NCBI RefSeq assembly: GCF_001540865.1
Contig: NC_033629.1
Location: 10,165,873-10,229,872, forward strand
Direction of reading: 5' to 3'
DNA length: 64,000 nt
Origin: Ananas comosus
Lineage: Eukaryota > Streptophyta > Magnoliopsida > Poales > Bromeliaceae
Part shown: in pieces, positions 3,991 through 64,000 of the stretch
How positions within the stretch are numbered: position 1 is the stretch's first letter
How the letters are laid out: every line of letters starts with the position of its first letter
The notes under the pieces: generated by a model
Told to the model about the DNA's origin: nothing
Seen by the model: only the letters and a program-made list of their open reading frames with translations
Databases searched by the model: none
Position numbers and translations under genes: made by a program

Positions 3991-3999
3991 TCCTGAGTT

Positions 4000-4497
4000 T
4001 TTTAAAGTATGAAAGTTTTCGTGTTTGTAAATTATTTTTGATATTGGGATCCGATTCGACGATCGATTTGTTAGGTATGATCTATATTATTATAAGTATT
4101 TAGAAATCAAATTTTATAATTTTTTGGTTTCGTTTGTCTAGTGAATAAGTAGTCTTAAAATGAACAACTGAAAATAAAAATCTTATAAAAAATAGTGATA
4201 AAAAACTAAAATTTTAAATTGAAAATATTATTCTTGCTCTTGATGTTAAGTAGAATTTTAATTTGGATTCTTCTACACCATTAAACTTACAAACGTGCCA
4301 TATCAGCCGTTAAAATAGTTATTTTTAAGACCCTGTAATCACTTGATAAATAGTGTCGAAAAATTATAAAATTTAATTTCTAAATAATTCTAATAGCGTA
4401 ATTCATACTTAACAGAACTGATAGTCGAATCGAATATCCTATCATCGAAAACAACTTACAACTACAAAGACCTTCGTGGTTTCGAAAACGTAGAAGA
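4000..4497. mobile_element. Foldback MITE with ~190-bp inverted arms
   Basis: The left arm (from 'gaaagttttcgtgtttg') and the right arm (ending 'cgtggtttcgaaaacg') are imperfect reverse complements over roughly 190 bases, including 'gattcgacgatcg' against 'gactatcagttctg' and a shared 'aaattttataattttt' block. There is no coding capacity. A related half-element with 'cgaatcgtcgatcgg' and 'gactgaaaataaaaatctta' lies at about 16680-16980. Target duplication was not resolved. Confidence 0.55.
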
Positions 4498-5188
4498 CGT
4501 AATCTTAAAAATCAGTACCCAACCTAATATTTGTATCAAAATTTCTAGACATCAAATGTATTGGTAGAGCTCAAATTAGAAACAAAGAAACAAAGAACTG
4601 CAAAGAACAAATTAGAAAAAATAAAAATAAAACAAAAAATTTGTGCACTACTTGTTAGATTGTGGATGAAAATTTGACCAAATCTTGACAAAAGGAAAGA
4701 GATCATCGAGCTTTAATTAGTTTCATCTAAGTTATTGAACTTTAGATCTATTCTAATTGGAGTAATTCTCAATATTTAACTAAGTTTTCAAAAGGAATAA
4801 TGAGAATAAGAGCCGATTCAAAAATTAAAAAAAATATTTGGTTAATGGTCGATTTAACAGTACATCATTGTAAGACTGATATTGTTAAATTAAGCACATG
4901 AAACAACTGTAATCTCCAAAAATTTATGTTAGTTGAGAATCATATTTTTAATATTTATATTCAAATACTTCTTATCATGTCTGAACTCAAGACATTTTTA
5001 TAAGCTTAGGAGGTAAAATTAAATTAGAGCAGAGGAAATTAATAAATTAAATAATGCTGGGCTTTGCTGGACACAAACTCAGAATCTCCTGTTGTGATAC
5101 CATATAAAATTATATAATATAACCGATTTCCACCAATACCTTAAGTTTTTTGACAACAATAATTATTTCATATAATTTTAATCAATTA

Positions 5189-7858: not shown

Positions 7859-8225
7859 ATGTGGCGTTTGTTGGGCAGGAGGGGGCCGTCTGGCTACTCA
7901 TCCTCATCTACGGCGGAGGAGGTGACGGAGGGAATCGACGGCTCCGGACTCACCGCCATCGTCACAGGTCCACTCTCATCTCCTCATCTCACTAAATCAT
8001 TATACCCAGGTTATAATTTTTTCTTTTTTTGTATAAATTTTAAAATATATGTATATAAAAACTAATTTATCTGTTCAAATCAACCGTTCAATTCAAAATT
8101 ATATCCAGTCTTCCCAGATGCGCTCTGACGGTCATGTGGCAAATTATCTCCAGTCTTCTCATCTATTACTTATTTAGATTCGCTATTTTCTCAAAACGGT
8201 AAATTATTCACTGCTTTCATCTTAC

Positions 8226-8264
<39 letters not shown>

Positions 8265-11200
8265 ACATTAAACACTGAAAATAACTTTAATGTTTTGAAA
8301 AAAACGGTGAACGATTTGCCATATTTAGACAGCGGTAATTCATTCACTGTATAGATTTAATTTTATAAATAAATTTTTTGAAGAAGAACTATTTTTATAA
8401 TCGTAATATTTTTTTAAGCCTATTAATAAAAAAAATTCTTTATATCACCTCTGAACTCACAAGTTTGGTGTTATTAGAAATCTTAACAAGGTTTTTTGTT
8501 TTTTTAAGTTTTGTGAAAGTCACGAAGTTCAGCACGGTGAGACACGAAGTTCAGCAGGGTGAGCAGATGATGGGGACAAATTAATGCATGTGTTTAATTA
8601 TAATTTGATGTAACATTTAGATTGAATGATCAATTGGAAAAAAATTGATTGTCTAGGGAGTAAAATTTGAACTTCTTAATCTCCAGGTGTGGATTTGCAA
8701 TCAGGCAAAGTTCATATGGGTCTTTGTAACCTTTTCTCTTTACCCGCTCTTTGCTGTTATGTTTGTGGAAGAGGATGGTGGATTGATGGATTAGGATGTG
8801 CAAATTGCAACACCTGAGTTCTTTTTGTTTTTTGATTTGTTTATGTTTGGATTTGTTGAGTGCATTTAAGTTGTAAACTGTTCCATTTCTTTAGTTGTTT
8901 GGATTAAGGATTAAAGTGCCCATCGACACGGGCCGTATCCACAGTGCCGTATCGTGCCAACAAAATATCAGCACGATACAGCCGCTGACACAATTCAAAA
9001 CCCTTTATTCTTGAAATTAGTGAGTAATTTTCTCAATAAAATTCAAAAGATTTGATAAAAATATATAATAAATAATTGTCATATGTTGTTGTTAAAAAAA
9101 TAAATATTTCGTGCCATTACATATCGGCGCACATATATTTTTGGTGACCGGCACGCATCGGCACGGCCCAGCACACACCGCGCTGTACCATGCCGGCAAG
9201 TTTCTGGCACAACCTCGTGCCACGACAACTTAAATCCTTGGTTTGGATATGACTGGTTTTGTAGGAAATAGTGATTAACTATTGATTTTGGAAGTTGGAA
9301 AGATTTTTCTCAAAAAAAAGAAGAAGAAGAAGAAGAAGTTGGAAAGATCTCTTTGGTTTTACTGGAATCGTGTTATTTTCTGTTGTCCTACTAATCTTGA
9401 GATTCATGCTGTTTTGTTTGGTGAACACTAAGCTCTGTTTTCTTCTGATTCTGATTTTAATTTCATTGTTTTGTGAAAGTGATGCTTTATGTTGTTGTTG
9501 CCTTGCATTCTCTTAAGGTTTTGTTTCTTTATGGTTATACATCATCAATAGTCCATGAATTTTTTCCATTAAAATTTGCTTTAGTTTTTGGCCTCTAAGG
9601 GTTCGACTTCTTGAAGTTATCTAAGTGCTTCAATTGTAGTCCTTCCCATAAACCTTTGTTGGTGGCACTAATTGACGGGAAATCAATTTCTAGGATAGCA
9701 GTTTTTGTGAATTAGGAAATTCAAAATTTCATGTTTATTTGAGGCTCTGCAGTATCCCCATTTTAACCATTCTTTTGCGGTTTGTTCTTCCCCCTCATTT
9801 AATCAATGAAATCATGTACTTCTCTTTCTCTAATCTCTACTCTTTTTATCATCTTATGGTTTTTATGAATGACCAGTATAACATGATCATAATTTTTATG
9901 CTCTAGTTTGGCTTGTACAATTTATGAGTACTTCATGCGAAATAACTTCATTTTAAGGCTTAGTGGTATGTTAGTCTTACCCAGTGGCGACTTTTCTATT
10001 TGTGCTTTGTCTAATAAGCTATGATGAAGTTGGAAAAGTTCTCAATACTTGATATTTATTGTTCCAAAAGCTTTTAGAGTAAAATATTATGTGCTCCTTT
10101 TTAGCAACATGAAACTTCCTATGAGTTTGGAATATGTCTGTTTTGATAGTTAGAATGAGTAGAAGTTAACTATTCAAATTATAGTTGTGTTTCAACTCTG
10201 AAATTCATCTACTTAAATGAACTTTGGTGTAATGGAGTTGTCAAATGATTCAGCATATCAGTTTATTTTTCAACAAAATGTTCTTTCTTTAACAAGTTAA
10301 AAAATTCGAACTATAAGAGTAAAATACTTTTTCTGTGCCATTTCTACATTTGTTTATTTTATGGCTAATCGTTTGATAAATTCTCTATTTTTTTGTGTCA
10401 ATTTTACCTGTTAGTGCATACATATAGTGGTATGGTCTACGCCCTTTAGCTTGCTCATTTTCTATTTAATTTATCTAATTTTCAAGTTCCATTTATTAGT
10501 TCTTCTTCATTTTCCTTCCCCAACTTATATGTCTATTTATATTATATTTTATTTTTAGTAGTACTTCTAATTAAATAATTTGTTTAGGTGCATCAAGTGG
10601 AATTGGTGCCGAAACATGTAGGGTTCTTGCATTACGTGGTGTACATGTAATAATGGGGGTGAGGAACGCATCAGCCGGTGCATGTGTGAAAGCAGTAATA
10701 ATAAAAGAAATTCCCAATGCTAAAGTTGATGTCATGGTTTTAGACCTCAGTTCAATGTCATCGATAAGAAATTTTGCGGAGAACTTCAACTCGCAAAATC
10801 TTCCATTGAATATCCTTATGTAAGATTTGTTGAATCTTGAAATTTCGGAAAGCTCTTACCTTTGATTTCTCTTTTGCATTTAGTTAACTGGTCATATCTG
10901 GCCTAGCTTGTGAAATAGCTTCTCTCCTCTAAGAAGCAGTAGTTAGGTGTTTAACAAACAAAATATTTGGAGCTTTTGCTGTTTCAGAAGCAGCAGTTAG
11001 GTGTTTAGCAAACAAAATACTTAGAGCTTTTGCTGTTTCAGAAGCAGCAGTTAAGTGTTTAGCAAACAAAATACTTAGAGCTTTTGCTGTTTCAGAAAGC
11101 TGAGATGAGCTTATTGGACCTAAAATTAGAAGCTCCAATATGAAGCTTCTACTATTGCTACAACGAAAAGCTATTGAAGACTTCAATAAAATATGTTAGT

Positions 11201-14200
11201 GCTTTGCAGAAGCTCCAGCCAGGCCCAGAAAGATCCTTATTGGTATTTAAGAAGTTTATTTAATCCAGGAATTTTTTTGCATTTAGCCCCCTCAGAAAAT
11301 TTTTTTCCACAAATAACCTCATAAAATTTATATTTATAAGATTGACCCTATCCTCTCCACGCAAGCGCCACACGAGCGCTACGTGGGCGTGGCGGTAGGT
11401 TAAGTTGAATACAGTGAACCATTCACCGTGTTTGGATACAGTCAAGGATTGAAGTGCCGCCCGTGCCGTACGGCACGGGGGCGTGCCGTACCGTGCCCCC
11501 AAAAAGAGGGCACGGTACAGAGGGGGTCTCGGACCCCCCCTCTGTCTCGCGGCACGCACCTGCGTGCCGCTCGAGACAAAGCGGCACGCAGGTGTGTGCC
11601 GGCGGCATGTACCGTGGGTGCTGCCAATTTTTTTTTTTTCCTTTTTGGCTTTCTTTTTTTGGTTTTTTTTTCCTTTTGTCCTCTGGGGTTTGGAGCCCCC
11701 CCTCCCCTCCCCTTGGGCTACCTATATTGTCTTTTTTTCACTTTGTTGTCTTTTTTTCAACTTCTTTTTTACTTTTTGGCGGATACCTTTTTTTTAACTT
11801 CTATATTGATAGCAAATTTTTAATTGACATACTTGATCCATACCGAGCCCTCCGCTTCCACCACAGACATTCATTTTTTTTTCACAAAAAATTTTGTCAA
11901 AATTTGTCGCACCATGAAACTTTCGATGAATCAAAGAAACAAAAATCAATTTCCTAAACAAATTTTGATCAGATATTTTTTTAAAAAATAAAAGAACAAA
12001 AAATATAGATGTAATATTAGGAATATATGAATTTCTCACAATACCGGCAATACTTATATCAACATTATCAAATAAATCTTGTATCTGCAGATAATAATAT
12101 GCCATATGATCAAGCGCGACGATCTATGTGGAATTACGCAGTTATCTCTATGTAAAGATGTAAATTTAAATAATTATTGTACTTGTGAATTTTATTATTA
12201 TATTTTAATTTCATTCTGCATCAGGTATGGCTGTACTTTACTTACAAAAAGTTTTCATGCATGTTAATTGATGAGTATAGTAAGGTATATATATTAAATA
12301 TTCATAATTATTTTGTTTAAATTTTTCAAAATAATATTATAAGAGTTTATTGGAACCAAAAAAACTAAAATAAGTCCATGCCAAAGCGTGCCAGTAGGAG
12401 GTCATGCGTATCTATCGGCACGCAAGCGTGCCACATGTCGGCACGCAAGCGTATCTGTGCAGTACCGTGCCAGGGACATAACGGCACGCCCCCGTGCCAT
12501 GGAACTTTAAACCTTGGATACAATGATGGTTCACCGTGTCCTTCCTAAACCGTAAATCTCAAATACTACGTAATACCATGATAGGAAAATAATGGAACAT
12601 AGTGAATCATTCACCGTGTCCAAACACGGTGAATGGTTCACCGTATTCAACTTAACCTACTCCTCCATCCACGCTTGCGTGGTGCTCGCGTAGGCCAATC
12701 TTGCAAATATAAATTTTGTGGGACTATTTGTAAATTTTTTTTTTGAGAGGGCTAAATGCAAAAAAAGCCCTTCAATCAATGTCAACGGGGTGGTTAAATA
12801 ATTTGTCCTATTATTGGAAGTAATAATGCAGGAATTGCTTTTGCTCCTTTCACACTTTCTGAGGATGGCATTGAGCTGCATTTTGCCACAAACCACTTGG
12901 GTAATTTTCCTGTTCAAAATTTTAAATTCTCACATGTGGAAAATATTTCTTTTTGTTTGTATCTTTTGGATGACCAACACTTAAAAAACACATTGAAGGA
13001 AAAACACTGCCATCTTTGCAGGCCATTTTCTTTTAACACATCTCTTGTTGGAGGGCATGAAAAGGACTGCTCAGGAAACTAACATAGAAGGAAGGATCAT
13101 CATTGTTTCTTCAGATAGTTACAAGCTTACATACCATGAAGGAATTCGCTTTGATAGGATCAATGATGAATTGGGGTAAAACTCTATTTTTGAAAACTAG
13201 CAACTTTTCTTTTTTCATTTTACTTTTGTTTTGTTTTATTTTATATTATTTTATTTTATATTTTTGGTTATCACTAGGTACAAAAGTATTCTTGCTTATG
13301 GGCAATCCAAGCTCGCCAATATTTTGCATGCTCAGGAGCTCTCTAAGCAATTGAAGGTGTCGATGCTCTTCTTTTTCTTCAAATGGATCACTGTACTAAC
13401 AGAGGAACAATTCTTGTTTCACTTTAAACATATAAAATGATTAGCCTGTATAGTTGTTTTGCTAATTTTCGAAGCCTCTTACAAATTGCTGAAGCTATCA
13501 CATATTATACATTTTGTTGTATTCACATTTTTTTCCTTTTTTACCAATGCCATGGGAGAAAAAACAATCTTCCACAGTTCAATCTATTTACCTCAATAGC
13601 CAAGTAATCTTTTGATCTCTATCTTCATAGTATACTAAAGATGTTTCACATTACTAATCGGGAGGAGGGCCTATAGATTGTGTTCGCTTCTGAGTACCCG
13701 GTCCTACTAGAGAAGAAAAGAGAAGAAAGAGTCCGAGGTTCCTCACTGCATTTGTTGGATAAAATAAGTTTAGTATCCATTTTGTAGAAGACGAAAGTTG
13801 AAGAGCATATCTTGCTCTTCGGCTTCCTCTAGAATCACTTTATTAGCAAACCATTTTTCACCCTGATATTCTAAAATTCTCCAACTTTCGTGGTTTCTTT
13901 TCTTTACGAAGGTATGAGTCATACCTTAACTTTTGGTTGACAATTCTCTCCTTTGTCTTTAACAGCATGAAGATGTGAAGATAACAGTTAATGCACTTCA
14001 TCCAGGGGGTATCGTCACCAATATCATGCGGTATCAAGGTTTTCTTGATGGTATGACCTTCTCTTTATCTAACTTTATTTCATTTATTTTCGCATATTTT
14101 GCGTTTAACTGGGGATTTTTTTTTACCCCTTTGGATTCATATAATTCTATAAGTTGAACACAACTCTGAGACTCTGATAGATTATATGAAGTTAAGAAAT

Positions 14201-15693
14201 TCCAGCCATCTGGGAAAATAAGAAGCCAATTATCAAAAGTTTGGAAATGGCTGGCGAGTAAATGAACTTTATGGTTATTAAGAATTAGCAGGAAGGTAAG
14301 CAAGCACATGATATGTATAGGGTTATTTGATGTATGAAGAGCTGCTTGTTAGGCGAAGCATAAGTGAATATGCTATCGAGTATTCTTGCATACAACAAGG
14401 ATTGCAATTATTTTACTTTTTGAAACTCCCCTTTCAGAAATAGCGATTGCTATAATTTTTATGAATCGAGGATACTATGTTTAACACCTACTTATTTGTT
14501 GATCTTTAAAATGTTTTTTTTTCAAATCTTGAGATATATTCATGATTCTACATCTTCTGATCGAAAGTTGGAAAGAAGCAATATTTCATCTTTTGCGTTG
14601 TCAAAGTATCATCTATATATGTTGTTCTCAAGTGGAAATAATACAAAGATTAGTATGTTAAAAGAATATTTGCTGATTGTTGTCCACAAACTCCACAGAA
14701 ATGCTAAAGTTGATTGTGGCCCTGAGAAAGTTTCAAAATGTAACAAACAATAGTTGATTTTACAGTATACATATTTTTTTAACTCTAATCTGTCATATGT
14801 AGTGGGTTAAACATACTGTTATCTATTTTGCAGGTCTTGTAGCTACACTTGGTAAATATGTATTGAAAAATGTTCAACAAGTAAGTTTAGGAAATTAAGC
14901 TTTTGTTTTGTTTTCTCTTTTTTTTCTTTTCTTTTTTATTTGGGTGTGTGTTTGTTCGCACATGTGCACATCAAAACTACTTGTTCATCATGTGTTATTT
15001 TCTTGACATTCCATTTGATGCTTTCAAGTTGTATGCATATGGATGGGTACTCAGTTATCGATTATAATCATATTTAGAGTCACGTCTATCGTACAGAAGT
15101 GATAATATATAGACAGAGTAAATACGACATTATACCGTTTTTTTTAACAAGAAAACAAACTATGCTGCCGCGTACAATGAAGAGTTATTCCTTGACATGA
15201 ATCTATTTAATTTTCAAGTAGAAGAACATGTATTCTTTCTGAAACATTTTGTATGTACTTACTGGAAACTGCAGAATTACTAATGGCTTATAATTCTTCT
15301 TATATGTGCTACTTTTAAAGAATGCCCGTCTGCTATGTAGCTATATTTATATGGAAATAAGATTGTTATTAAGATTTTTTGGAATCACCATGTGGTTTTG
15401 TTCCATTTACGCAGAATTTGATTAAGGAGAAACCCTTTGGGCATAATGTGACTAGTAGAATGAAATTTGAGCACGAGAAGCACTTTTTAGCTGACTTTGA
15501 GATTCCATTTCTAATGCAGGGAGCAGCCACAACATGCTACTTGGCATTGCATCCGCAAGTGCGGGGAGTCAGCGGCAAATTCTTCGTCGACAGCAATATA
15601 ACAGAAGTAAAATCTCATGCGACCGACGAAGATCTCGCGAAGAAGCTGTGGGATTTTAGCATGGGCTTAATCAAAGTACAGATGACTTCCTGA
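7859..15693 (+). CDS. TIC32-type short-chain dehydrogenase/reductase (8 exons, 319 aa)
   Basis: NAD(P)-dependent short-chain dehydrogenase of the plant 'TIC32, chloroplastic-like' group; TIC32 itself is an NADPH-dependent redox sensor at the inner-envelope import machinery. Exons: 7859-7967, 10588-10819, 12821-12900, 13022-13175, 13278-13356, 13966-14050, 14834-14880, 15520-15693. All junctions are GT..AG and all phases match, giving 319 residues, normal for the family. Visible: family N-terminus [20 protein letters not shown], cofactor motif TGASSGIG (36-43), NNAG (115-118), IVSSDSYK with the active-site serine region (170-171), catalytic YGQSK (Tyr199, Lys203), HPGGIVTN (230-237) and the conserved tail [16 protein letters not shown]. 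Intron 2 has been enlarged by a foldback MITE and a nested hAT element. True import-complex membership versus another reductase role cannot be told from sequence. Confidence 0.95.
8225..8262. repeat. (TA)n microsatellite
   Basis: About 18 TA units in intron 1 of the short-chain dehydrogenase gene. Confidence 0.9.
8905..9240. mobile_element. hAT MITE, copy 1 (336 bp, 8-bp TSD)
   Basis: Terminal inverted repeats TAAGGATTAAAG and (inverted) CAAGGATTTAAG, flanked by a perfect 8-bp duplication GTTTGGAT (8897-8904 and 9241-9248). The interior is rich in 'cggcacg' and 'cgtgcc' words shared with the copies at 11443 and 60300. An 8-bp duplication with CAAGG-type ends fits the hAT superfamily. It lies in intron 1 of the short-chain dehydrogenase gene. 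Confidence 0.85.
10935..11098. repeat. Three tandem ~54-bp repeats
   Basis: Three near-identical units containing 'gaagcagcagttaggtg', 'ttagcaaacaaaatac' and 'ttagagcttttgctgttt' lie head to tail in intron 2 of the short-chain dehydrogenase gene. The outer sequence (about 10890-11215) resembles the 'gcctagcttttg ... aagcacttggcaaac' repeat at 31270, so these look like an internal expansion of a MITE. Confidence 0.75.
11267..12770. mobile_element. Foldback MITE family, copy A (split by a nested hAT element)
   Basis: The left arm ('tttttgcatttagcccc' ... 'ttaagttgaatacagtg' ... 'ttcaccgtgtttgg') and right arm ('ccaaacacggtgaa' ... 'attcaacttaacctac' ... 'gggctaaatgcaaaaa') are inverted repeats of about 170-250 bases. 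Related copies lie at 34534-34957 and 50112-50501. The hAT element 11443-12516 interrupts the centre. No protein signal. Confidence 0.75.
11443..12516. mobile_element. hAT-type non-autonomous element, copy 3 (1,074 bp)
   Basis: Ends CAAGGATTGAAGTGCC and (inverted) CAAGGTTTAAAGTTCC, flanked by near-perfect 8-bp repeats gatacagt (11435-11442) and gatacaat (12517-12524). Both subterminal regions are packed with 'cgtgccg' and 'cggcacg' words forming GC-rich palindromes. It is the largest of three family members here. Overlapping open frames at 11423-11957 are Cys/Arg/Pro-rich readings of this GC-rich end and look non-coding. Confidence 0.8.
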
Positions 15694-17449: not shown

Positions 17450-18073
17450 ACATTTTGACCAAATAATCACTCTAATATGTGCTCAAACTTAGAACATCAT
17501 CCGCTCATACCGAGTCTTTCTCAATTGATCGACCTTGACGCTCGACGGACAATCGATTGCCCAATCCACAAAGTGCTCTCGACAAATCCGCCCTACCTTC
17601 GGCTCATTGATCAACGGTGACAACAACCAACCTTCCAACGCCCGACAGCTCAAAGCCGCCACCGGCGGAATGGCGCCATGACGCACTTCCTCTCATTGCT
17701 TCAATCAAGATCCCTGAGCACCCGCACATCGGGCATGAGTCATGCAACACAAGCCACTATTCAAATGCACTGCAGATGGAGCTTAATTATACCATGTAAA
17801 TTTATATGAAACAATCGTTATTCTTCAAAAGCTTAGACCGTAAGAAAACGGCGCTTTTAATATTTATATTCAACTACCACCGTCACCTCCTTCCCCTCAT
17901 CGAATTCTGTCGGGCACACCCTCTAGTTTGTCAACATAGTTGTAGGAACCGTCTCTACAAGCCTCTACGAGCGTTTTTTCCTGTAGTGTTCGCACTTATG
18001 TTTTGTAGGGGCGGTTTAAACCATCAGTATAGGTCAAGAAAACAGCCACCAAAAATCTCTTTTCCTTGTAGTG
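17450..18073 (-). mobile_element. CACTA-type transposon terminus (one end only)
   Basis: On the minus strand the boundary reads CACTACAAGGAAAAGAG, a classic CACTA/Spm terminal repeat, starting at 18073. Subterminal words follow: a second TGTAGTG at about 17990, 'tgtaggggcggttt' and 'ctctacaagcctctacgag'. The inner part (17490-17690) is moderately GC-rich with a 65-codon open frame I do not recognise. I could not find the partner end; 17085 'ctactacagtg' is too weak. Confidence 0.5.
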
Positions 18074-18138
18074 ACAAGAATAAGAAAAGTAAAGAAGCAT
18101 CTTCGCCGTCGACATTGTTGGGGTTGTCGACAGCCTTT

Positions 18139-18592
18139 TGTTGGTGAAAAACTCAAAATTTTGAGTTTGAACTTATTTTATTTGAACTTTAAATTATTTA
18201 TTATTTATTATTTATGATTCTATTTATTTATTACTTTATTTATTTTATTTTATTTAATTATTTTAGTATCTTTCTTAATGAGAAAGAAACTAACGGAATT
18301 TTTTTCCGTTCCGTTTCTTCCGCGTTACGTTGGGCGGGTTCCGCTTCTTTCTCGTAAGAGAAAAACGTAAAATCCTCTTTCCTTTTTAGGTCTTTTTCCT
18401 TTTCTTCTTGCTTAAGATAGAGCAGACAGAAAAGATTTTTAATCATTGGTTAATCTCTATCCATTTATTCTTTTATCTTTCATTTTTGAACATTCCCCTT
18501 ATCCACTGGGTGTTGAGAATCTTCGTCAACCTCCTTCACGATCGTGCTCGCAGAATGAGGAATTCCGGTCGTACCTTGGGGTGTTATTTCCG
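18139..18592 (+). repeat. Left LTR, first 454 bp in normal orientation
   Basis: Nearly identical, base for base, to 23914-24367: I count about three differences by eye. It begins TGTTGGTGAAAAACTC and stops abruptly after 'ttatttccg', where the right LTR continues 'gttaatcccgcacg'. The two overlapping open frames in each LTR (about 60-80 codons) are not recognisable proteins. Confidence 0.9.
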
Positions 18593-19112
18593 AATGACGT
18601 CATCCTTTTTTTTATGAAATTAATGATAAAAGATAAAACAGGAAATATTATAGTTACTGACCCAGTTTTCAACGTACTATTCAGCTCGGGGTAGATAAAA
18701 ATAGTAATTATAATTTTTTAATATTTGAGACTAAAGATTTATAAATGTTATCGACACCCTAAGGTGGGTGTACTTAGAATTGTTGTCTCACTTTAGGTTC
18801 GTAGGGGACAAAAAAAAAATTGGGGTTTTTTACTCTTAAGGTGTTTTTTATCTATTATTTCTTACTTTGTCGTCCCTTGAACTCCCTTTGTTTAATCTTT
18901 AACGGTTTTCGTACTGTCCTATTACAGTTTTTAATCGTGGTTTTAATGTTGTATTTTAGTTGACTGGACGAGACGTAGAAAGGTAAACTGAATTAGAACA
19001 TTCTAGTAGAGTTGACTCCGGACTCTGTTGATTGACATTGTCAAAGGTTTGATTATTATTTTGACCGTATTTTTCGTATCAACTTAAAGGCTTCGACACT
19101 AATGTTTAATGA

Positions 19113-19293
19113 AGTAAAGGACGCCTAGAATTATAAGTTTCAGGTAACTTCGGAAGGGAGACCAGCGCCTTATAGGAAGCCGTTTGCCTCGCCGTGGAGC
19201 ATGAGAGGGTCGCTGCAGTCGCCGCTGCCATCCACCTCCAATAGACCCACCTATAACTATGTTTCAACGGATCGGTGGACACACACACACATA

Positions 19294-19330
<37 letters not shown>

Positions 19331-19907
19331 ATCGTTTTCCTCTTTTCTCTCAAAGTTGAGATCTGTTTAAACACGTCTTTTATTTTAATCGTCTCACTTC
19401 AAAGTGTCTTTTCCGTAATCTAAACTTCTTCGTACTTTGTCTACGTTGTTTGTCTCCGGATTCTATTTATAAAATCAGGTCCAAGTCGTTGCTTTTTGTA
19501 TGACTCTACAAACTAGCGAGTTTTCTCAATAGTCACCAAATGTTCTTGTATGGTAGCGTTTCTTTTAGGTACTTAATAAAAGAAAAGTCTACCCTAATTT
19601 TCTTTTAAATCTTTTTACCAACCTTTATCTTTTCATGGAGGAGCTGTTAAAGTAGGAAACAGTGGCCACTTGCGTTAAGCAATAGTTGGAACTACTTGGA
19701 GGAGTTTTGGATACCACTATAAAATGTCCTCAATGTCAGTATCGGTATACATATCTTCGGCCATCATGTAGTTCTGTTATAAAGTTTCAAACTAGTCGTT
19801 TACTTTGTCATCCTTAAGGTGCGTAATGCTAAAAAAGTAACAGGAAACATCCTCTCATTTATATTTTTAATAGTAGCAGGTATCCAACTAACCTTCGTAG
19901 TAATATG

Positions 19908-19939
<32 letters not shown>

Positions 19940-20643
19940 CGTTGAACCTTTGACAATAAAATCAAAGGCAAGTTTCTAATTTTACTACCATTTTAGTTAA
20001 TCGTGACAACTCTATCTTTTTTATAGTGTAAATGGTCTTTGTCTTACAAGGAGAATGTTTAATAGTATATAGTTTTCTCTTGTACTTTTCATCTGTCTTA
20101 TATAATCTTTTCCACGGTCAAAAGTTTACGTATCATGTCTTTGAACTTGGGAGAGGGACCATTAGAACTGTAATATATCGTAATATATGATTAACTCTAA
20201 GAGATAAGGTAAAAGTAACGGTTTTTGGCTTTGGTATTATAAGGGCGAAAACAATTTGTTTGGTGATCTTCTTAGTTCTTTTCTTTTAGCGGTTTCAATC
20301 GACTTATTTCTATTTTTGAGTTAGATGACAAAAACTTTAGGAGGTTAGATGCTTTCTTATATATCTCAAAGCGTTAAGTCTCTTTACCTTTTTAGAAGTT
20401 GATTTATACTTGACAATTGCCGTGGCATATAGTTTCTTCTTAGTTAACGTACGGTTCGTTTTAGTTCATTAATTGTGGTAAAGAAATAACTTTACTACGA
20501 TCGTTTGTAAGTGTTATTTATAAGACATCTGACTTTGTATTACGTAGTCTTTTCATGTGTTGATGGTTTAAAAATGAGTGGTTCTCCCGTAATAGTTCTG
20601 CGAAACGACGGTAGACTATAAGAAAGTAAAATTCAAGGACAAC
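19113..20643. pseudogene. Ribosomal protein L9 (mitochondrial type), C-terminal 3 exons, readable only backwards
   Basis: Reading right to left on the given strand without complementing: exon 20643-20581 (21 codons; KMKEYQMAAKRLDNALL), intron beginning GTGAGT, exon 19709-19638 (24 codons; VLRRFIKVDNELRSPVTKDE), intron beginning GTAC and ending CACAG, exon 19277-19113 (54 codons plus TGA; ends PEGRLQWTLNIKIRRK). All exons are phase 0. These are hallmark residues of the plant nuclear-encoded bL9 family, a large-subunit protein of about 220 aa; this is its C-terminal ~99 residues. The N-terminal exons were not found in the rest of the block. The coding sequence itself looks intact, so the source locus is probably a working gene; as stored here it cannot be expressed. 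I use 'pseudogene' only for lack of a better type. Confidence 0.9.
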
Positions 20644-22010
20644 GACAAAGTCTGTTTATTTTTCGTGTAATCTTAAACTGATCGATGTTATCTCATACTT
20701 ATGTAGGTTATTTACATTCTTTTTACGTTATCATTCGTGCGTACTACATTTAGCATGTTATGCGATTTAATCAAAACGTGTCCCTATGAAGTCAAGGAAC
20801 CGTAAATGCATTAAATCCGTTTATGTTTATAATTTCTAGAGAAGTTTATACATGAGGCACGACGGTGGTTCCAGTAACCATTATCGAATTAAGAGGATTT
20901 GAACTGTAAAAGAGTTTAGGTGGGTGATTACTCATGTCCTTGTTGTGACATTGAATGTAAAACTTTGGTGTGGGATTCCGGGTTTCTGGTCGATTAGATG
21001 AAAAGACGTTAAACGGGTCCCAAGTTGGTATAAAACTTGGAGATTTCCTGAAGTTAAGTATGAGTCTACTTACACGTCTCATAAATTCTCTCGTTACGGT
21101 GGTTGTCTATTTTGTTATCTTGTTTTGTAAAATCTATTTTATCTAGAAAGAATGAATTCATGAATTGATCGAGTAGTGGATAAAAAACAAGTTAGTTTGT
21201 GAAGGCAAAAATGCATGATGTAACAGAGGAAGTTGAGGAGGAATGAAAGGGACGAATAAAATGTAGATTTGAATTAGGTGAGAATTGTTTTAATTAACAA
21301 TATGGTTAAAACCACATATACTGGAATCATAAAACCTAACCATTTTAAGGATACATGAAATTAGGATCTGGTCTATCGTCACTAAGACCGTAATGTAATT
21401 CGTAAAGTTTCTAGTCAGCCTCCTGAACAAATGTCATTCAGAAGATGTAACAGTTCAACTATATAGTGAAAGGTTTCTTTCCCGTCATCAGGCTGTGTAC
21501 TAGTAAGACTATGGATACAAACAAACGTACTATTATAATATGGAGATAAGTATGGAGATGAGTATGGAGGTATGAAGATAAATGAAGCTAACTCTTATAC
21601 GTTTAAAAACTTCATACCAATTTACCGTAAAGGTAAAATACAATAAGGTACAGGACACTCGATCCTTTCACTCGTTGTTTTCTTTCCTTTGTACTAGTTT
21701 AATATCACGTTGAGAGTACCTCCATCTCTTCTCATAAGGAAGGTAGAGTTTGACCTTGTAGTGATTGAGAGTACCTTTTAATCTACATCTTTTCTCTTAA
21801 GGAAGATCTTTGTTCAATACATGATGGCGTTGTTTTGTATATTAGGGTCTAATGTCTTTATAACCATTAATTTTGTTGTTTAACATTATTTATAGGAGTA
21901 TTTTTTTATATATAGACAGTGACTACGTGATGTATTCGAGAGGAGGCTAGTATAGATGTACGTAATAAGGTATTCTCAGTTTTATCTTCTCTTTTCTTTC
22001 TACACATTGT

Positions 22011-22231
22011 ACAACCTTGTTTATGGCGTCGCTTTTAGACTAACACTAATTTTAGATTGATTGAAACACTATTTTTATTTTTGTTTGTTTGTATGTCTAT
22101 TTGCGTTTATTTAGTTGAGTGTCTATTAGCGATTTAGGGTTTTAACACCTTTTCCTTATAGTTGTATAATTAGGCCTTCGCACGCTCCGTGACGGGATTC
22201 CGCATAAGGGCAGGAATGCACGCCTTAATTG
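22011..22231. repeat. Last 221 bp of the left LTR, reversed
   Basis: Read backwards it runs from 'gttaattccgcacg' to 'tttgttccaaca', matching 24368-24587. Differences are mostly C/T and G/A exchanges and number roughly 15-20 by eye, many more per base than in the first 454 bp of the same LTR pair. Confidence 0.9.
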
Positions 22232-22232
22232 N

Positions 22233-23913
22233 ATTGTGATTAAATCTGACGGTGCTAATCTATTAAAATATATACATATATATTTTTGCATATAATTCTG
22301 TTTGACAACTTGCTTGTATGCTTGTCATTCAAATTTAAATAAATTGGGATTAGCATTTTTAATTTCTAATTGGATATTGTTTATCTGCAAATTATTTTTT
22401 TTATTGTTATTATTTTTACCGTACGGATTCAAAAGGGTGGATTTTTTTTTGCGACAGTAAATAACATTTTATTTATGTACGGTTTGAGTTTTGCTATTGA
22501 AAATTCCTTAAAATTTTTTTGTTAAAAAAAAAGGGATTTGCTACAGTGATTTTTTTAAAGTGTACGGTTTTTTTAAAAATTGTTACAGTAATTATTTTTA
22601 GCTTTCCTGTGTGTACGGGTTTTAGTTTTGCTACAGTAAAACCCATTGCTAATTAAAAAAAAATTGCTACAGTACTTTCTTTTCCACTGTTGAGATTTAT
22701 TAAAACTTATTTTCAAATAGATTTTAAAACTTAATTTTAGAGATATAAATATACTATTTTTCGAAAAAAAAAAAGGGAAGGAAAAATATTTTGTTCCAAG
22801 GGAGATTTGATTTCACAGTATCTAACCTGCAACACTATTTCTAAATTTTATTTTTTCTATTATTTCAGCAATTTTTAAAATCTATTTGCTGCATAGATAT
22901 TATTTGATTGCATATGTTATTTGCTCGAAATTACCTAATTGAAATCAATTTTGTTTTAAAAAAAATTGTTTGGTCCGTCTTTTGCTGTTGAATCAAACTC
23001 TATTCAACATGATTAAATTTCATGATTTTTAAATTTTAGTATATCTCTGAAATTGTGGGGGAGCGTCTTTATCAGTTTGATAAATTTTGATATTATAATT
23101 GCTCTCATGTTTTCATTTTGTCTATCATTGTGTTTAACTTGTAAATAAAATTTATAAATTCTAAAGTTAACATTTATATTATATTGAGATAGAAATCTGT
23201 TAGATGGTTAATTATCTATCATATTATTTATTTGAGTTTTGTCAGATTTGACTAGAATCTTGCAGATTACCAGATTGAAGGCCTAAAGAGGACTATGGTC
23301 CTGTAGTCATCGAGGGGGATGGGACTTTGCCCGTAAAGGGCCTTCCTGCAGTGGGAACCCAACCTTTGTGATAGGAGATCCCTTGAAGAAGGTTCAATGT
23401 GGTAAAAACAAGCTGTCAGGTTGGCCAAGAGCACTTTCTACAAATTTTATAAAGGAGCTTTAGCTCCAATCCCATCCCTATGGTGAGTAGTGCTCTGTGT
23501 AGTGGATCAGGTTGAGCTGAGAGCTCTTAATGGGATCCAAGGCGATAATTTTCGCGAGATGTGACTCTACACACATCCCTGGAGGAAACCACCTATATAA
23601 GAGTATCCGTATGTGGCCGCGGCTATGTGATATGGGCTATCCATAGAAACTCTTATGAAAAATCAAGGTACTGTGCATGGCCATTAACGCACAGACCCGC
23701 GACGGAGAATTCTGTACTGTGTGTGTGGTGGTTGAAGTCAGGGTCAAAGGAACGTAGTTCAAGACCTGGTTCACTCCGATTCCTTCTGATGGAAATCACT
23801 TACACTAAGTGGGGTTAAGTCTCTTAAAGACACCTCACCCATTGCATAGTATAAAACACCCAGTAAATTTGATTTTAATTCGTAATTTTAAAATTTTGAG
23901 TTTTGTGGGGGAT
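22233..23913 (+). other. Non-coding 3' interior of the LTR element
   Basis: Normal orientation. A degenerate tandem array at about 22425-22680 repeats 'ttgctacagta' and 'gtgtacgg' words with a spacing of roughly 60-75 bases. The part from 23250 to 23830 is GC-richer with many short conserved-looking words but no continuous frame; the 85-codon frame at 23561-23818 is not recognised. It ends in the purine tract before the right LTR. Confidence 0.6.
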
Positions 23914-24587
23914 TGTTGGTGAAAAACTCAAAATTTTGAGTTTGAATTTATTTTATTTGAACTTTAAATTATTTATTATTTATTATTTATGATTCTATTT
24001 ATTTACTACTTTATTTATTTTATTTTATTTAATTATTTTAGTATCTTTCTTAATGAGAAAGAAACTAACGGAATTTTTTTCCGTTCCGTTTCTTCCGTGT
24101 TACGTTGGGCGGGTTCCGCTTCTTTCTCGTAAGAGAAAAACGTAAAATCCTCTTTCCTTTTTAGGTCTTTTTCCTTTTCTTCTTGCTTAAGATAGAGCAG
24201 ACAGAAAAGATTTTTAATCATTGGTTAATCTCTATCCATTTATTCTTTTATCTTTCATTTTTGAACATTCCCCTTATCCACTGGGTGTTGAGAATCTTCG
24301 TCAACCTCCTTCACGATCGTGCTCGCAGAATGAGGAATTCCGGTCGTACCTTGGGGTGTTATTTCCGGTTAATCCCGCACGTAAGGACGGGAATACGCCT
24401 TAGGGCAGTGCCTCGCACGCTTTCGGATTAATATATTGATATTCTTTTTCCACAATTTTGAAATTTAGCGATTATCTGTGAGTTGATTTATTTGCATTTA
24501 TCTGTATGTTTGTTTATTTTTATTTTTATCACAAAGTTAGTTAGGTTTTAATTGCAACCGGATTCCTATGCGATATTTGTTCCAACA
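23914..24587 (+). repeat. Right LTR (674 bp)
   Basis: TGTTGG at the start and CCAACA at the end form the usual short inverted termini. The CCTTT duplication follows at 24588-24592. Confidence 0.92.
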
Positions 24588-24592
24588 CCTTT

Positions 24593-25636
24593 TCCGTGTC
24601 CAGCGGCCCGCGGAATCAACGTCCGAGGCCTGAGACTCAACTGGAAAGATGAGAAACGAAGATGCTCCACAGCTCCAGTGGTTTTTTCAACTTCGGGAGA
24701 AGTAATAAAATCCATTTACAATAATGAGATAGTATTGAGAGTCAATCAAAACAAATGATGGTGCCATTTCAAAATGGCTTAAATAGTCGGAATAATTTTG
24801 AAATGAGCCCCTCAATTTTATTTTATTTTTTCTAATGGGCCCTACTGTATCTTATGACTGCCATAATGGAACAGTTACCTGTTTTCATGCATTTTTAGGA
24901 ATATACTTCTTCGTGACACAAGTTGAGTACTTACGATTGGGACCTGTAGTTATCTTAAACTTTTTGAATGAGCAATACCTAGTGGTACGCTGAAAAACGG
25001 ATGTAAATCATACATTCCATTCATCCAAGAATAAAATTCTCTCCACTAATCACCGCACCCTTGAATAAGTGGGGCGCAAAATATACACCTCTTTTAAGAT
25101 GTATAAATAGCATTTACCCTTTTGCATACAAGCAATGACTATAAATGATAAATAATACCAAATTATTGATGTACTTCACCTACAATTTTTTCAAATGTGC
25201 ACACTCCAAAAAAAAAGAGTGTAAATACCTCCTTTCATCCAAGAATCAACTTTTGACTCTTTATCCTGTCAACTTTTTTTTCTTAAAAAAATATATATAC
25301 GAAAAACATTAAGAGCTTTTGGTTATAACTCAGCCACCCCTTTTGGGGTGTAAAACTAGCATTTTTTTTCCAAATAATTTGAATTATATAAGGCAAGTCA
25401 GAATGATTTCTCAGCATACGAGCATTCTATAAATATATTAAAAAAAAAAAAAAATGCTACTTGTACACCCGAAAAAGATATAAATCTTAGACCCCCTCAA
25501 CCTACAGTATAGAAAATCCTAGATGAGAGTTTTTAGTAGTAAAAAACAGAGTTTTGACAAGACATATGGGCCATTAGATGGGGGACCTAAGATTTAGACC
25601 CATGTCTGAGTGTGCAGGTTGCAGTGCTCTTAAAAA

Positions 25637-28800: not shown

Positions 28801-31800
28801 CCCCTCTAAATATGCAGAATATCACATATATTCTTGCAAAGTTGGTTTTTGTGTGCAGGCCACCGAAACCTCTATTGATTGCATTCATAGCCTTGCCAGG
28901 AATATATGCAAACAAGTTTTGCATAAATGCAGTTGGCAGGACCACAAACAGAAATAAGAAAATTTTTGGTGGCATGCGTGCAAATACCACCTTTGCATGG
29001 ATATTTGCGCAATTTTCACATATTTCCAGGGCTATATGCAAAGAAAAAGAAACCTAAAGTTATCTATGCAATGATTAGCTGTAAATTATCAAACTTAATA
29101 AACTTATATAACCATTGTTGACATTGCAGACTTGCTCCGGTTACCTAGGTAATGTATGTGCAATTTTCCTGAAACTTCTGAACTTGAATTTCTAGCAAAA
29201 GAAAGTTGAAGGCAGTGATATATGGTAAGAGGCTGTAAATTAGGAACAAAATTAAGTTACTATCATGAAAGGCTTTAAAAAAAAAAAAAAACAAGGCATG
29301 CTAAAGCACTATTTATAAACTGTTATTGCATAGTTATGCAATTCTCTACATCAAAGAAGAGAAACAGAGGCAACAGCGAGAAGAGATTCAAACAACATGG
29401 AAATTTACTCCAAATAGAACTGCACATAGTTTGACAGAATCATCAACTAATCTCACCACATAGTCATTCATTATTTGAACTTTGTAAAGGAAAAAAGTAA
29501 TATTATCACCTATATTATGTTGCATGACTCAGATTACTCCTAAACTATTAGATGGCATTGCAGGATATATGAATCACAATCGGTGAAATTCATGCGTAAC
29601 TTAGGTGCCCTATGTTGTCACTAATTTATTTAGGCATTTCATTCACCAGAAACACATAAGAAAGGAACACATAAGAACGAATTACTTACTTGCTAGGAAA
29701 AATAGAATCATTCAACTGAGGCTAAATTGTACTTTTGTTCCTCTAACTCTGAGGGGTGCGACATTGGTCCTCAAACTTTAATTCATGCGATTTTTTACTC
29801 AGAAAGTCCTAAATTGTTACAATTAAGTTCCACAGTCCAATTTAATTGGTCAAATAATGATATACGGTAATATAGTGGTGATGTGGTAGTATTGTAATCG
29901 ATGACATGACAATTAATAAGATACCACACCACTTCCATATCAACGAAATATTAGTATTCAGTTCAATTAAATTGGACTATAGAACTTAATTGCAACACTT
30001 AGAAAGTTCAAGCCAGAAATTATAACAAATTATAACAAATTAAAGTTTGAGGACTAAAAGTGCAATTTACACCTTCAACTTATTATTCCATTAGTTGGCT
30101 ACGTTTTAGTTAAACAACAATGCGATCAGGATCGGATGGAAAAGAAACCATTGAAGATTAAGAAGATGACAAATATGAACACCATCTTCTAATGAGTTTT
30201 AATAGAAATCCAATCTTTGGGATACTCAAGCAGTTCTAGTAAACTCATTGCAGAATGATGCTCAAGTTTCTCCAACCATGGCAACAAACATGAAGAGTGA
30301 CATGCAGTAAGGCTAACAAAATATGGAGATTACATTTCTAGATTAATCATGGAAAGCGAAAACATTGTTCTTGCAGGGTTTGTCAGATGGACAGCATAAA
30401 TATGCTTACCATGTTTCATATTCTTAATTTGGCTATCTAGTGGCTTCTATACCAAGAGGGGAATTCAAGCAAAAAAGGTCCTTGAAGGCCAGAACACTAC
30501 ACAGCACTGTTTGTACCTTTTATAGAGTCCAATTATGTTAAAATGTCTTGGTTATAAGGAAGTGAACTAAACCTTACATCTGTATTAACCTCCTGTCTTG
30601 CTTTGAGTATAGTACAGAGATATGCAATCATTTTTCCAAAGAGAGACAAATAATAATCACAACAAAATTAGTGAGGAATCTCCGGAAGTAAACATAAAGA
30701 CTCCAGGAAAAAAAAAATGCTATACCCAATGGAGTAACAATGCGACAGGTGAATGAAAAGGAAGGCTTCTCCACTTGTAGTAATCCTTCCAACTACTCAA
30801 AGGAGTTGATATCGGATTTTTTGGATCTGTTATAAAGAAGCAGAAATGCTAACAGTATACCAGTACATGATAATGCTAGTTAAACTGATTACTAAGTGAA
30901 AAGTATACCAGTACATGGGCACAGCGAACTCGGTAGGTTCCAGTCATTCATTATACTGCCAACAGATAAATATGTTAGTAAATATAATGCATGTATTTTT
31001 AGAAAAATAACTGTTCATGACATGAGTTTTCCATTAAGGCGACGAGTAGAGCAAACAATAAAAATATACCCTGTATCCATGATTGGCAATATATTACACT
31101 GTTTGGCTCAACAATTTTCATCATTTTTTTTTTTTGAGAGGGGACATCCATAGGGTGATTCCCTAAGGGAAATCAATTTTCATGATAAAAATCATTTAAA
31201 TATGATAAAAATTCTTTTAAAGACAAATATAGCAAACCCCATCTAGCATGAAGTTAGGTGCATGTTTGGCCTAGCTTTTGGTTGCACTCCTGTTTCTGTA
31301 GTTGCAGCCTCCTTTATTAAAGCACTTGGCAAACAAAAAAGTTTTGGAACTGTTGCTGTGTTGTGAAGATGAAAGAGAATTTTGAGGCCTGCAAGCAAAA
31401 AGTCCAATGTGTTTTTGCTTCTTCTGCAACAAAAAGAAGTTTGGGAGAGATTCTAATGATAAAGCAATTAGTGCTTCTCCCACCAGCACCAGTCAAACAG
31501 AATCTTATCAAACACAGCTACACCTAAAGTCAAGACAAACAAGCCCTAGAAATAGTTTAATTGAGGTACTAAAGCTTAAGAAATCAAGGACAAATGCTTC
31601 AAAGACATAAAATAGAAAATATCTCTAAGGATAGTCTTAGTTATAACAGGATCATCCACAAAATTAAAACTTCAATGTACAATAATTAGTAAATCATTAA
31701 TGATTTCAAAGTCACTCTTGTTGTTAACATACATGGTTAGTCTCATCTACAAATATATTACCCTATACCCATGGTTCGCAATATATTACACTGTTTACCT

Positions 31801-34439
31801 CATCAATTTTCATCTTTTTCTTTTTTGAGAGAGAGGGAACATCCATAGGGTGATTCCCTATGGGAAATCAATTTTCATCATAAAAATCATTTCAGCATGA
31901 TAAAAATTATTTTAAAGGCAAATATAGCAAACCCCATCTAGCATGAAGTTTGGCCTAGCTTTTGGTTCCACTCCTGCTTCTAATTTAGTTGTAGCCTCCT
32001 TTATTAAAGCACTTGGCAAACAAAAAAGTTCTAGAGCTACTGCTGTGTTGTGAAGAAGAAAAAGAATTTTGAGGCCCGCAAGCAGAAAGTCCAATGTGTT
32101 TTCACTTCTTCTGCAACAAGAAGATGTTTGGGGGAGATTCTAATGATAAAGCAATTAGTGCTTCTCCCACCAGCACCAATCAAACAGAATCTTATCAAAC
32201 ACAACTACACCTATAGGCAAGCCAAACAAGCTCTAGAAATAGTTTAATCGAGGTACTAAAGCTTAACAAATCGAGGAGGAATGGCTTCAAAGTCATAAAA
32301 TAGAAAATATCTCTAAGGATAGTCTTAGTTATAATAGGATCATCCACAAAACTAAAACTTCCAAGTACAATAATTAGTAAATCATTAGTGATTCTAAAGT
32401 CACTCTTGTTGTTAACATACATGGTTAGTCTTATCTACAAATCTATATGAGGTCCTCGAAATATGTCCAGATGAACAATGGAAATGGTCATTAAATTGTC
32501 AGATTTCTTTAACTACGTGAATTTCTCCACTTTTGATGATGACAGGAACTCAAATGTTATTTGGCCACACGTGGGTCAAATTATGTTGACTTAGAAACCA
32601 AACAAGAATTGTCGAAATTCATTAAACCATGTAATATATTATAAAAAAGTTGTGCATCTTTCTGAAAAGTTCCAAATAAAATATGGAAAGTTTCCAAAGA
32701 GTTCGGTTCATCGCACCATTTCTTTTATATGCACGAGTTTTCAAAAATGTTCTATGCACTCAATCATATGGATTTAAATCAAACTGTCCATGCATTGCAA
32801 CTCCATCTGTAAGAGAATGATTTTAAAGCTCAGCCAAGGCCTAGTTTGGGATTAAAGTATCTAAAAGCAGTAAAGCACCCGCTTTCATGCTTTGGAAGGC
32901 CTGGAAAATGGAAAGCGCTTTCAATCATCTCTCCTTTATGTCATAAAATGATAGTGGGAAACACCGCCGGAGAATCAAGCAACTACTTGCTTCTCCCGTG
33001 GTAGTTCCCACCACCATTCATAACATCAGAGGAAAAATTGAAAGCGCTTTCAAATTTTTTGGCCTTCCAAAGCATGAGAGTGGTTGTTTTTAGACACTGC
33101 GATCCTAAACCACGCCTTAATGAGAAGATTGCTTATCGTGGACAACATGATGCATCATTCCTTAAAAAGAAGAGGAAAGAACCCACCACGGAGAGGGGAA
33201 AAGTAAATAAATAAACTAGAGTACGGCAAAGTAGTCTAGCGAATAAGATACATTAATTAGTTCCTTATTGACTAATATGCCACTCGCAGAGAAAACCATA
33301 TCCTATGAATATATATGAGAGCACAAGATTAGGAGAAAACCCTAAGCCACCGATAGAAGCCAAGGTGGGCCCACAGCTGCATTCCGACGTCCACAGCCCT
33401 CGTTGATGAAGTCCCTTTGACATGAAAAGAGAGCATCTAGTCATCTGTTCTCCAGATCTCTATAAAACAATAAAAAATATGTAATCACGAAAAGAGACAG
33501 ATGGTCAAAAGCAGCAATTTTTCTGGATGGAAGTTCCATCTAAATGCCACACACCAGAATTCACATCTCATAAAAACTGATTGACACAGTATCATAACAT
33601 GGAAATAACTTTGTCTGGAAGCTGCACATCTCGATCTCTACTAAATTACACAGAGGAACAAAATGGCAAAAGAACAAGTAACAATCACTGAACGGTTTCC
33701 GACGCATGATGCTTACTTTGAGACAACTCATTTTGAGTTAAAAAAAAGAAAAGAAAAGGATAGTGAGAGCTCCTCACACCAATTTAGACCTGAGATCACA
33801 GACCAGGTTAAGTTTGCCTGGTCCGGAGACTTTACAGCTACATTAAGCAACAGGCAGAGGAATTATGATTCTTTCTAAACTAGAACAGTAATTCGGATGC
33901 CGAGGAACCATGAAAATTATTAGCTTTAAATTCTCATACTCATTCACATTGCAAAGATGTGAAATTTCCGTTTATTTCATACTAGTCAAATCTCAAGAGA
34001 TATTCTGAATTCAAGCATGTTGCGTTGAGGCAGATGAATAATGGTATCCCTTCAATTTAATGATTCGGACTAATTTACAGAGACTAGAATAAACTCAATA
34101 ATGTGATTTTACCAGGAGCGAAGCTTCCTCAGAGAAGGTGAACGGGAAATCGTTTAAAGTATCCGCCATCCTCATCTGTTCTTGGAGTCTCGCGCATTCA
34201 TCTCTGTGATCGTTCCAATGCAACATCTGCAGAATCGTTGCAGAAACTTTCCAAAAATGAATTGAGCTAAATAAGGGAAATTCAAATAATCACATCGAGA
34301 GAAAGAGAGAGAGATTGATGATGACGACCTGGTGGGAGGGTGAGCAGTAGGCGACGGCGCCGCAGAGCCCGCAGCGCCGCGAGGGTCGGCCCGGCGCGCA
34401 CGGCCCCGCGCCGGCGCTGCCCTTCGCGGCGCACTCCAT
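25832..34439 (-). CDS. MYND zinc-finger protein, plant ZMYND15-like group (11 exons, ~367 aa)
   Basis: Protein of a conserved plant family of unknown biochemical role with one N-terminal MYND zinc finger (a protein-interaction domain). Exons, 5' to 3': 34439-34329, 34226-34113, 33444-33341, 30955-30909, 30826-30726, 30404-30334, 28684-28549, 27962-27821, 26928-26857, 26345-26232, 25924-25832. Visible: start MECAAKGSAG, zinc ligands in RRCGLCGAVAYCSPSHQ and HWNDHRDECARL, then LNDFPFTFSEEAS, TRCSLFMSKGLHQRGLW, NDWNLPSSLCPC, SSWKDYYKWRSLPFHSP, GPEKELLQLAVFGELR, RDGETICISNYAHCSE, PHLIVAPNAGVAAYSSWLPT, VPAIFTDFCEEAAFLASRC, and an end in PCYSNCFIFGM. Ten of the eleven exons join in phase. The sixth (71 nt) leaves a one-base phase conflict with the seventh: a mispredicted splice site, a missed micro-exon or an indel. 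The start codon sits about 95 bp from a foldback MITE. Confidence 0.92.
28107..28497. repeat. ~200-bp tandem duplication in a MYND-gene intron
   Basis: Two adjacent near-identical copies (about 28107-28313 and 28314-28497) share 'aaaatagatccctactta', 'ttcaaggcaagcaaatag' and 'caacgttctattatttt'. The first copy has an extra internal duplication of 'tagaactaggtattagtc'. The second copy ends just before the acceptor side of exon 28549-28684. Confidence 0.85.
28760..29060. repeat. Unclassified TGCA-rich repeat in a MYND-gene intron
   Basis: A GC-richer island of about 300 bp is open in three frames. It contains 'ttgattgcattcatagcc', 'atatgcaaacaagttttgc' and 'gcatggatatttgcgc'. Its minus-strand reading resembles that of 54213-54473 (shared 'NAI..G...' pattern and Thr-Lys words), so it may be a terminus of the same Mutator-like family rather than a gene. 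Confidence 0.35.
29715..30086. mobile_element. MITE with ~35-bp terminal inverted repeats
   Basis: Left end 'ctaaattgtacttttgttcc' and right end (inverted) 'gtaaattgcacttttagtcc', followed on both sides by 'tcaaactttaatt'. It lies in the MYND-gene intron. Related copies: 48605-49455 (interrupted by an RNase H remnant) and about 39905-40200. Confidence 0.65.
31068..32445. repeat. ~690-bp tandem duplication in MYND intron 3
   Basis: Copy 1 (about 31068-31760) and copy 2 (about 31761-32445) run in parallel from 'taccct(g/a)tatcccatg'-like starts through 'catccatagggtgattccct', 'agcaaaccccatctagcatg', 'ttggcctagcttttggtt' and 'gttgttaacatacatgg'. Each includes a MITE-like part similar to 10890-11215. 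Open frames inside both copies are equivalent and not recognisable. Confidence 0.85.
32838..33118. mobile_element. MITE with ~60-bp inverted ends in MYND intron 3
   Basis: Left 'aggcctagtttgggattaaa' plus 'gctttcatgctttggaaggc' pairs with right 'ccttccaaagcatgagag' plus 'gatcctaaaccacgcctt'. A second inner pair is 'gaaagcgctttcaa'. No coding capacity. Confidence 0.65.
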
Positions 34440-63110: not shown

Positions 63111-63117
63111 GATTATT

Positions 63118-64000
63118 ATGAGCGATGATGACCTCTGTAGTTTTATCGATTTCGTTACGGCCTCAGCTCAGGCCCTTGCTAGCTATAGAGTGTTTTTGAT
63201 GTTTTCTTGTGTTTCCATGTTTCAAATCTGTAGTTGGAATATCAGGGATCTAAACGACTTGGGTAAAAAGGGTGTAGTGAAGTTTGTCGTCTCTAAGTTT
63301 AGGATATGTGCTTTGTCTACAAGAAACTAAAGTGGACACTGTGTCTCGTTGTTTTCTACGATTGCTCGTGGGATCATACTTCGATAAATGTCAATTTATC
63401 AAATCAAAAAGTGCGACAGGAGGGACTATTACCTGTTGGAGCTCTCACGACTTCTCGTGTGGAGAAGTGATTGTTCGAAACTTTTTCCTTACTATCTGAC
63501 TGAAACACAATGCCAGTAACACTGTTTTTTACCTAACGAACGTGTATGGCCCCTCTACGTGGAATGGAAAGTCTGAATTTTTAACGAACTAGCTGAACTG
63601 AAAATAGCCTGTGGAGGACTGTGGGCCATGTGCGGTGATTTCAATCACCAGAAATCTTGACGAGAGGGGGGCTGGAAGTTGGTGCGAAGGGCTAATGGCT
63701 ATGTTTACTGATCTTTTAAACGAATTGGGACTAATTGACCTACCGCTGGGTAATCAGAAGTTCACGTGGTCCAACATGCAAAACTGCCCATCCTTGGCCA
63801 AGTTAGACCGGTTTCTCATTTCCACGGAGTGGGACCAAGCCTTTCCTTTGTCGAAAGCTTTAGCAGTCCCGAGAATTACGTCCGACCATTCTTCGATACT
63901 AGTTTTTATTATGGATATAAAACCTCGCCGTTTATTCAGATTCAAGGAGGTCTGGCTAGCTCGAGAAGATTTTTGCAACCTAGTGACTGTATGGTGGGAG
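63118..64000 (+). pseudogene. Decayed LINE ORF2, AP-endonuclease domain (runs off right edge)
   Basis: Start of an L1-type ORF2. The apurinic endonuclease motifs appear in order but across frames: ICSWNIRDLNDLGKKG (about 63228), CLQETKVD after a +1 shift near 63310, FYLTNVYGPSTWNGKSE (about 63523), WAMCGDFN (about 63620), LPLGNQKFTWSNMQ, KLDRFLISTEWDQAFP and SDHSSILVFI (about 63880). Several stops and frameshifts make it inactive. Reverse transcriptase would follow beyond the window. Confidence 0.88.

Follow-up and report, generated by a model that had tools for sequence, protein, structure and literature searches.

A 3.6-kb block of a pineapple assembly written in reversed letter order, probably a misplaced gap fill

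We analyzed a window of 64,000 nucleotides from the Ananas comosus assembly GCF_001540865.1 (contig NC_033629.1, positions 10,165,873 to 10,229,872) and found that positions 18593 to 22231 of this window are written in reversed letter order without being complemented. Repeat, gene, and composition evidence agree on the reversed reading. In its written order, the block is an artefact and has no biological meaning. Our best explanation, to which we give a probability of about 0.88, is that a gap fill ran through an LTR into another chromosome's copy of it and was written out string-reversed. A preliminary description of the window had recognized the reversal from the LTRs; what is new here is the host gene in the reversed reading, the mirrored composition, and the probable mosaic nature of the restored LTR.

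The LTR pair and the edges of the block

The left LTR was expected from the preliminary description to stop at 18592. As written, its positions 18138 to 18592 were equal to 23913 to 24367 of the right LTR at 452 of 455 aligned bases, with mismatches at 18172, 18231, and 18323, and this forward identity broke off at 18592 exactly; the bases that follow 18592, read as written, showed no likeness to the right LTR. The missing 221 bases had been placed in the far end of the block, and 22231 to 22011 read backwards did align to 24368 to 24587 (203 identities, 17 mismatches, and 1 gap). With the block read reversed, the repeat proper ran from TG to CA in both copies, and its limits agreed with the lengths first proposed: 675 bp on the left, made up of 454 bp written correctly on the plus strand (18139 to 18592) and the 221 bp at the end of the block (22011 to 22231), and 674 bp on the right (23914 to 24587, plus strand). 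The paired LTRs were enclosed by an identical 5-bp target-site duplication, CCTTT, at 18134 to 18138 and 24588 to 24592.

The right edge of the block directly abuts the single N of the window (22232), as had been described, and the left edge falls where the LTR identity breaks. Both edges thus lie at assembly seams, if 18592 is taken, as we infer, to be the end of a contig. In a slide test, neither edge could be moved by one base.

The match to the LTR depended strongly on the orientation in which the block was read. In local alignments against the right LTR, the reversed block scored 350, the block as written 29, its reverse complement 27, and its complement 26, and the top score among 200 dinucleotide shuffles of the block was 49. 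An exact 16-mer scan of the whole window in the four letter orientations, with low-complexity words excluded, gave one strong reversed-string diagonal (66 words, 22055 to 22224 against 24375 to 24544), and the remaining nine reversed diagonals held 1 or 2 words apiece.

These orientation scores led us to reject two readings of the block. A natural inversion yields the reverse complement, and the block did not behave as the reverse complement of an ancestral form (27 for that orientation versus 350 for plain reversal), which leaves an inversion or other DNA rearrangement, dismissed already in the preliminary description, with practically no probability; to our knowledge, no process makes a 3.6-kb same-strand mirror copy. 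Alternatively, the block could have been complemented without being reversed, in which case its complement in place would be the true sequence. Letter by letter, such a complement would also be valid DNA, on the other strand, and, apart from one gap and one mismatch, the first 18 bases past the N (22233 to 22250) resemble the complemented LTR end of the block. However, this likeness is short and near chance level (its score was 26, while 24 was reached in 17 of 1,000 shuffles and the shuffle maximum was 27), and it is by reversal only that the left LTR is continued at the exact base where it stopped. We therefore regard complementing alone as extremely improbable.

A backwards bL9 gene and a mirrored composition

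The reversed string carries three exons of 63 nt (20581 to 20643), 72 nt (19638 to 19709), and 165 nt including the stop codon (19113 to 19277). Each is preceded by AG, and the 63-nt and 72-nt exons are followed by GT. Spliced together, they gave 99 residues closed by a stop codon, and these were identical at 99 of 99 positions to residues 124 to 222 of the protein record P0001 (124 to 144, 145 to 168, and 169 to 222 for the three exons, respectively). This closest relative is Ananas comosus LOC109727046 in the source's naming, with 100% identity over 98% of the query. When the window as written was compared with its reversed string by tblastn (E of 0.01), P0001 found a match in the reversed string only, and its residues 1 to 123 gave no hit above 22 bits, whichever way the window was read. 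Known sequence in the block, both the LTR and the bL9 gene, was matched in the reversed, non-complemented reading only.

The 78-amino-acid piece spliced from the last two exons matched three solved chains, which we take to belong to plant mitoribosomes. The best of these, 6xyw_Ag (E of 3.4e-23), is named ribosomal protein L9/RNase H1, and the other two (E of 6e-23 and 7e-23) are named bL9m; relatives of the protein are labelled bL9c in UniRef. Based on these names, we call the predicted product organellar ribosomal protein bL9. Pfam evidence for bL9, taken alone, is weak, since a search of the three reversed frames of the block (E up to 0.1) gave L9_C alone, at an E value of 0.033 and with 15 bits, below the cut-off of 23.2. 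In P0101, a bL9 record from Ananas comosus var. bracteatus, the frame shifts after LTSL and the C terminus matches another frame of the same bL9 exon; the frame change would be consistent with one missing base in the source of that record.

The genes on both sides of the element read as written. To the left lies a TIC32-like short-chain dehydrogenase gene (7859 to 15690, plus strand), with 100% identity over 93% of 55 amino acids to the Ananas comosus record P0241, and to the right lies an ACR10-like ACT-domain gene (39665 to 45400, minus strand), with 99% identity over 115 amino acids to the Ananas comosus record P0121. In the same tblastn comparison, P0241, P0121, and the paralogue P0148 had matches only in the window as written.

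Several other features were observed in the window. On its left side there is a Bestrophin-like ORF (2319 to 2729, minus strand; Pfam Bestrophin_2, E of 2e-17), and 42-bp inverted repeats at 11395 to 11436 and 12619 to 12660, about 1.27 kb from end to end, possibly delimit a small DNA transposon (11395 to 12660). Right of the element, a unit of ∼690 bp occurs in two tandem copies at 31067 to 32446 (87 to 94% identical in pieces), and at 55125 to 57489 long inverted arms, with pieces of 55125 to 55831 pairing with 56797 to 57489, enclose a tandem array with a period of about 113 bp near 56029 to 56720. A weak CCHC zinc knuckle below the Pfam cut-off (60875 to 61297) and an ORF judged by eye to be endonuclease-like (63608 to 64000) suggest a LINE at 60875 to 64000; Pfam searches of 63608 to 63997 and 62092 to 62574 gave no match.

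The composition of the block was compared with that of the rest of the window using a strand-symmetric 5th-order k-mer model trained on the window outside 18593 to 24600. The log-likelihood of the block was +107 in favour of the reversed reading, and every third of the block scored positive. The control windows of block size, which overlap and were each excluded from their own training, all preferred the written order (51 of 51 negative; mean, −86; highest, −39). The block contains 110 CpG and 58 GpC, a ratio of 1.9, and among 106 overlapping control windows CpG exceeded GpC in 5, with a top ratio of 1.17. The asymmetry in base composition is mirrored across the whole block, and for the remaining interior between the LTRs (22233 to 23912, plus strand) the k-mer scores favoured the sequence as it stands.

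On a finer scale, 25 of 252 one-kb windows scored positive; 16 of these touch the block, out of 18 windows that do (2 were not positive), and 9 lie off it (highest score, 4.9). A cross-validated 6-mer segment search listed eight segments, with 17809 to 22193 at the top (score of 79) and 3992 to 4525 next (8.1). It is important to note that the top segment starts 784 bp to the left of the block's left edge (17809 versus 18593), so that edge cannot be placed from composition alone, and the composition test does not locate edges precisely. The correctly written piece of the left LTR leaned weakly to reversal (+4.5 with the 5th-order model and +6.3 with the 6-mer score), and the right LTR scored −0.1 (6-mer). 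Based on exact 16-mers and the cross-validated 6-mer score, we claim no second mirror block in the window. A fault of this kind can be flagged from the sequence itself by its CpG/GpC and k-mer asymmetry.

Origin of the block

The preliminary description implied that flipping the block in place would repair the sequence, and here our results depart from it: the flipped block would probably not give the true locus. The left LTR differed from the right LTR at 3 of 455 positions outside the block versus 18 of 221 inside (Fisher P of 5e-7), and when the poorly matching LTR end was left out, the count inside was 9 of 180 (P of 0.001). The divergence jumps at the edge, with 0 differences in the final 269 bp before it and 9 in the first 180 columns beyond. 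The lack of a hit above 22 bits to residues 1 to 123 of P0001 also counts for a foreign origin. In the protein table, the bL9 record P0001 has a single contig, of 10,398,566 bases; that of P0121 measures 13,841,557 bases, and P0241 has two contigs, the longest of 13,841,557 bases. Because the names of these records look like one annotation set, we infer that the bL9 record and the two flanking-gene records are on different chromosomes, a placement made indirectly from contig sizes only. Given the jump in divergence and the different-sized contig of the bL9 record, the block is probably foreign to the locus at 18593 to 22231, and the restored 675-bp left LTR is therefore probably a mosaic of two copies.

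The explanation that we favour would proceed as follows. The left contig would have ended within the LTR at 18592, the position of the observed identity break. A fill would then have resumed at the same LTR position, using a diverged copy flanked by the 3' part of the bL9 gene; in this simplest account, it passed from the left contig into the LTR and exited via another copy in or near the bL9 gene. While the sequence of the fill can be read directly from the block, its origin would lie on another chromosome. The extension would have been one-sided, rightwards from the left contig, and its string would have been reversed without complementing and inserted, with one N left before the right contig. 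The letter order and the N are plain in the assembly, and a program fault would account for them. The earlier suggestion of a string-handling fault at a gap is in this way supported by the LTR, bL9, and composition evidence together. Against the fill account count the weak lean of the left LTR piece to reversal and the 784-bp overshoot of the segment search; in addition, if part of bL9 had been copied naturally into the element and string-reversed later, the gene would likewise be found here.

The last of these points leads to the main competing explanation, in which the block is native to the locus: an LTR element captured part of bL9 with its introns, the letter order alone was spoiled, and an in-place flip restores the truth. 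The restored left LTR has a fitting size for this (675 versus 674 bp), and the outer target-site duplication is intact. However, capture by an LTR element goes with an LTR pair that is uniformly diverged, and the pair found here is not (3/455 versus 18/221), with the jump exactly at the edge; the bL9 introns are kept, unlike in a capture via spliced RNA; just past the end of the left LTR, the best match to one Met-tRNA-type primer-site motif covers 6 of 12 positions; and the contigs of the bL9 and flanking-gene records differ in size. Pfam detected no TE domains in the three reversed frames of the block (E up to 0.1; weak L9 match only) and no domain of any kind in the three forward frames of 22233 to 23912 (E up to 0.01), so gag and pol domains were not found between the LTRs. 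We thus consider a native block rather improbable. The reversal could also have been introduced after assembly, in later handling of the record, and this is very unlikely, as the edges coincide with the N and with the change of LTR copy, which points to the gap-filling step. A misplaced and mirrored gap fill remains our preferred explanation.

Known gap-filling errors and significance

Long-read gap closers are known to misassemble, and the relevant parts of two evaluations count relocations, inversions, and translocations with QUAST (PMC6324547 and PMC10815858). Such misassemblies resemble the pineapple block, as far as these texts describe them, in that a gap holds the wrong sequence, probably because of a repeat, and reads placed at the wrong locus through repeats are described in an excerpt of PMC8848313. 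In contrast, the QUAST classes named in those parts of PMC6324547 and PMC10815858 include no string-reversed class, whereas the pineapple fill is mirrored. The same operation, reversal without complementing, appears in a passage of PMC8920891 as a deliberate control set of motif matrices, while here it is an assembly fault. In searches of an open-licence library for reversed-not-complemented sequence and for faults of gap closing, none of the titles and abstract openings listed described an assembly fault of this kind.

LR_Gapcloser is reported to have been used for the MD2 v2 pineapple assembly. In its one-sided fills, as outlined in part of PMC6324547, the gap receives sequence from the read closest to one boundary and the remainder is N, and this is similar to the extension proposed here. 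According to the same part of PMC6324547, the number of Ns left by the program is the gap minus the fill, with 100 Ns at places where two fills come together, so the single N of the pineapple block would need a coincidence, and the string of that block is reversed besides. We did not adopt LR_Gapcloser as the culprit because its N rule, as stated there, does not predict a single N. A second argument is weak, since error-corrected reads may have been used for the MD2 v2 fill: an excerpt of PMC8848313 gives fills ∼88% identical to the truth in one benchmark, versus 99 of 99 residues in the exons here.

It is possible, although we hold this tentatively and with more doubt than confidence, that one of the gap-filling programs in real use wrote its one-sided extensions as reversed strings without complementing them, and that this assembly and others made with that program carry many mirror blocks, often chimeric via repeats, that could be flagged from the sequence by their k-mer and CpG/GpC asymmetry. 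The mirror block is of moderate interest as a class of error that can be detected. The strand-symmetric k-mer and CpG:GpC test works without reads or a reference and could screen any assembly. Such a block would pass quality checks based on Ns and length, and it would mislead gene and repeat annotation; since no alignment partner is expected for it, an assembly could retain it as "unique" or "novel" sequence. In its written order, the pineapple block is very unlikely to be present in any cell, and it hides a real gene fragment and spoils the dating of the LTRs.
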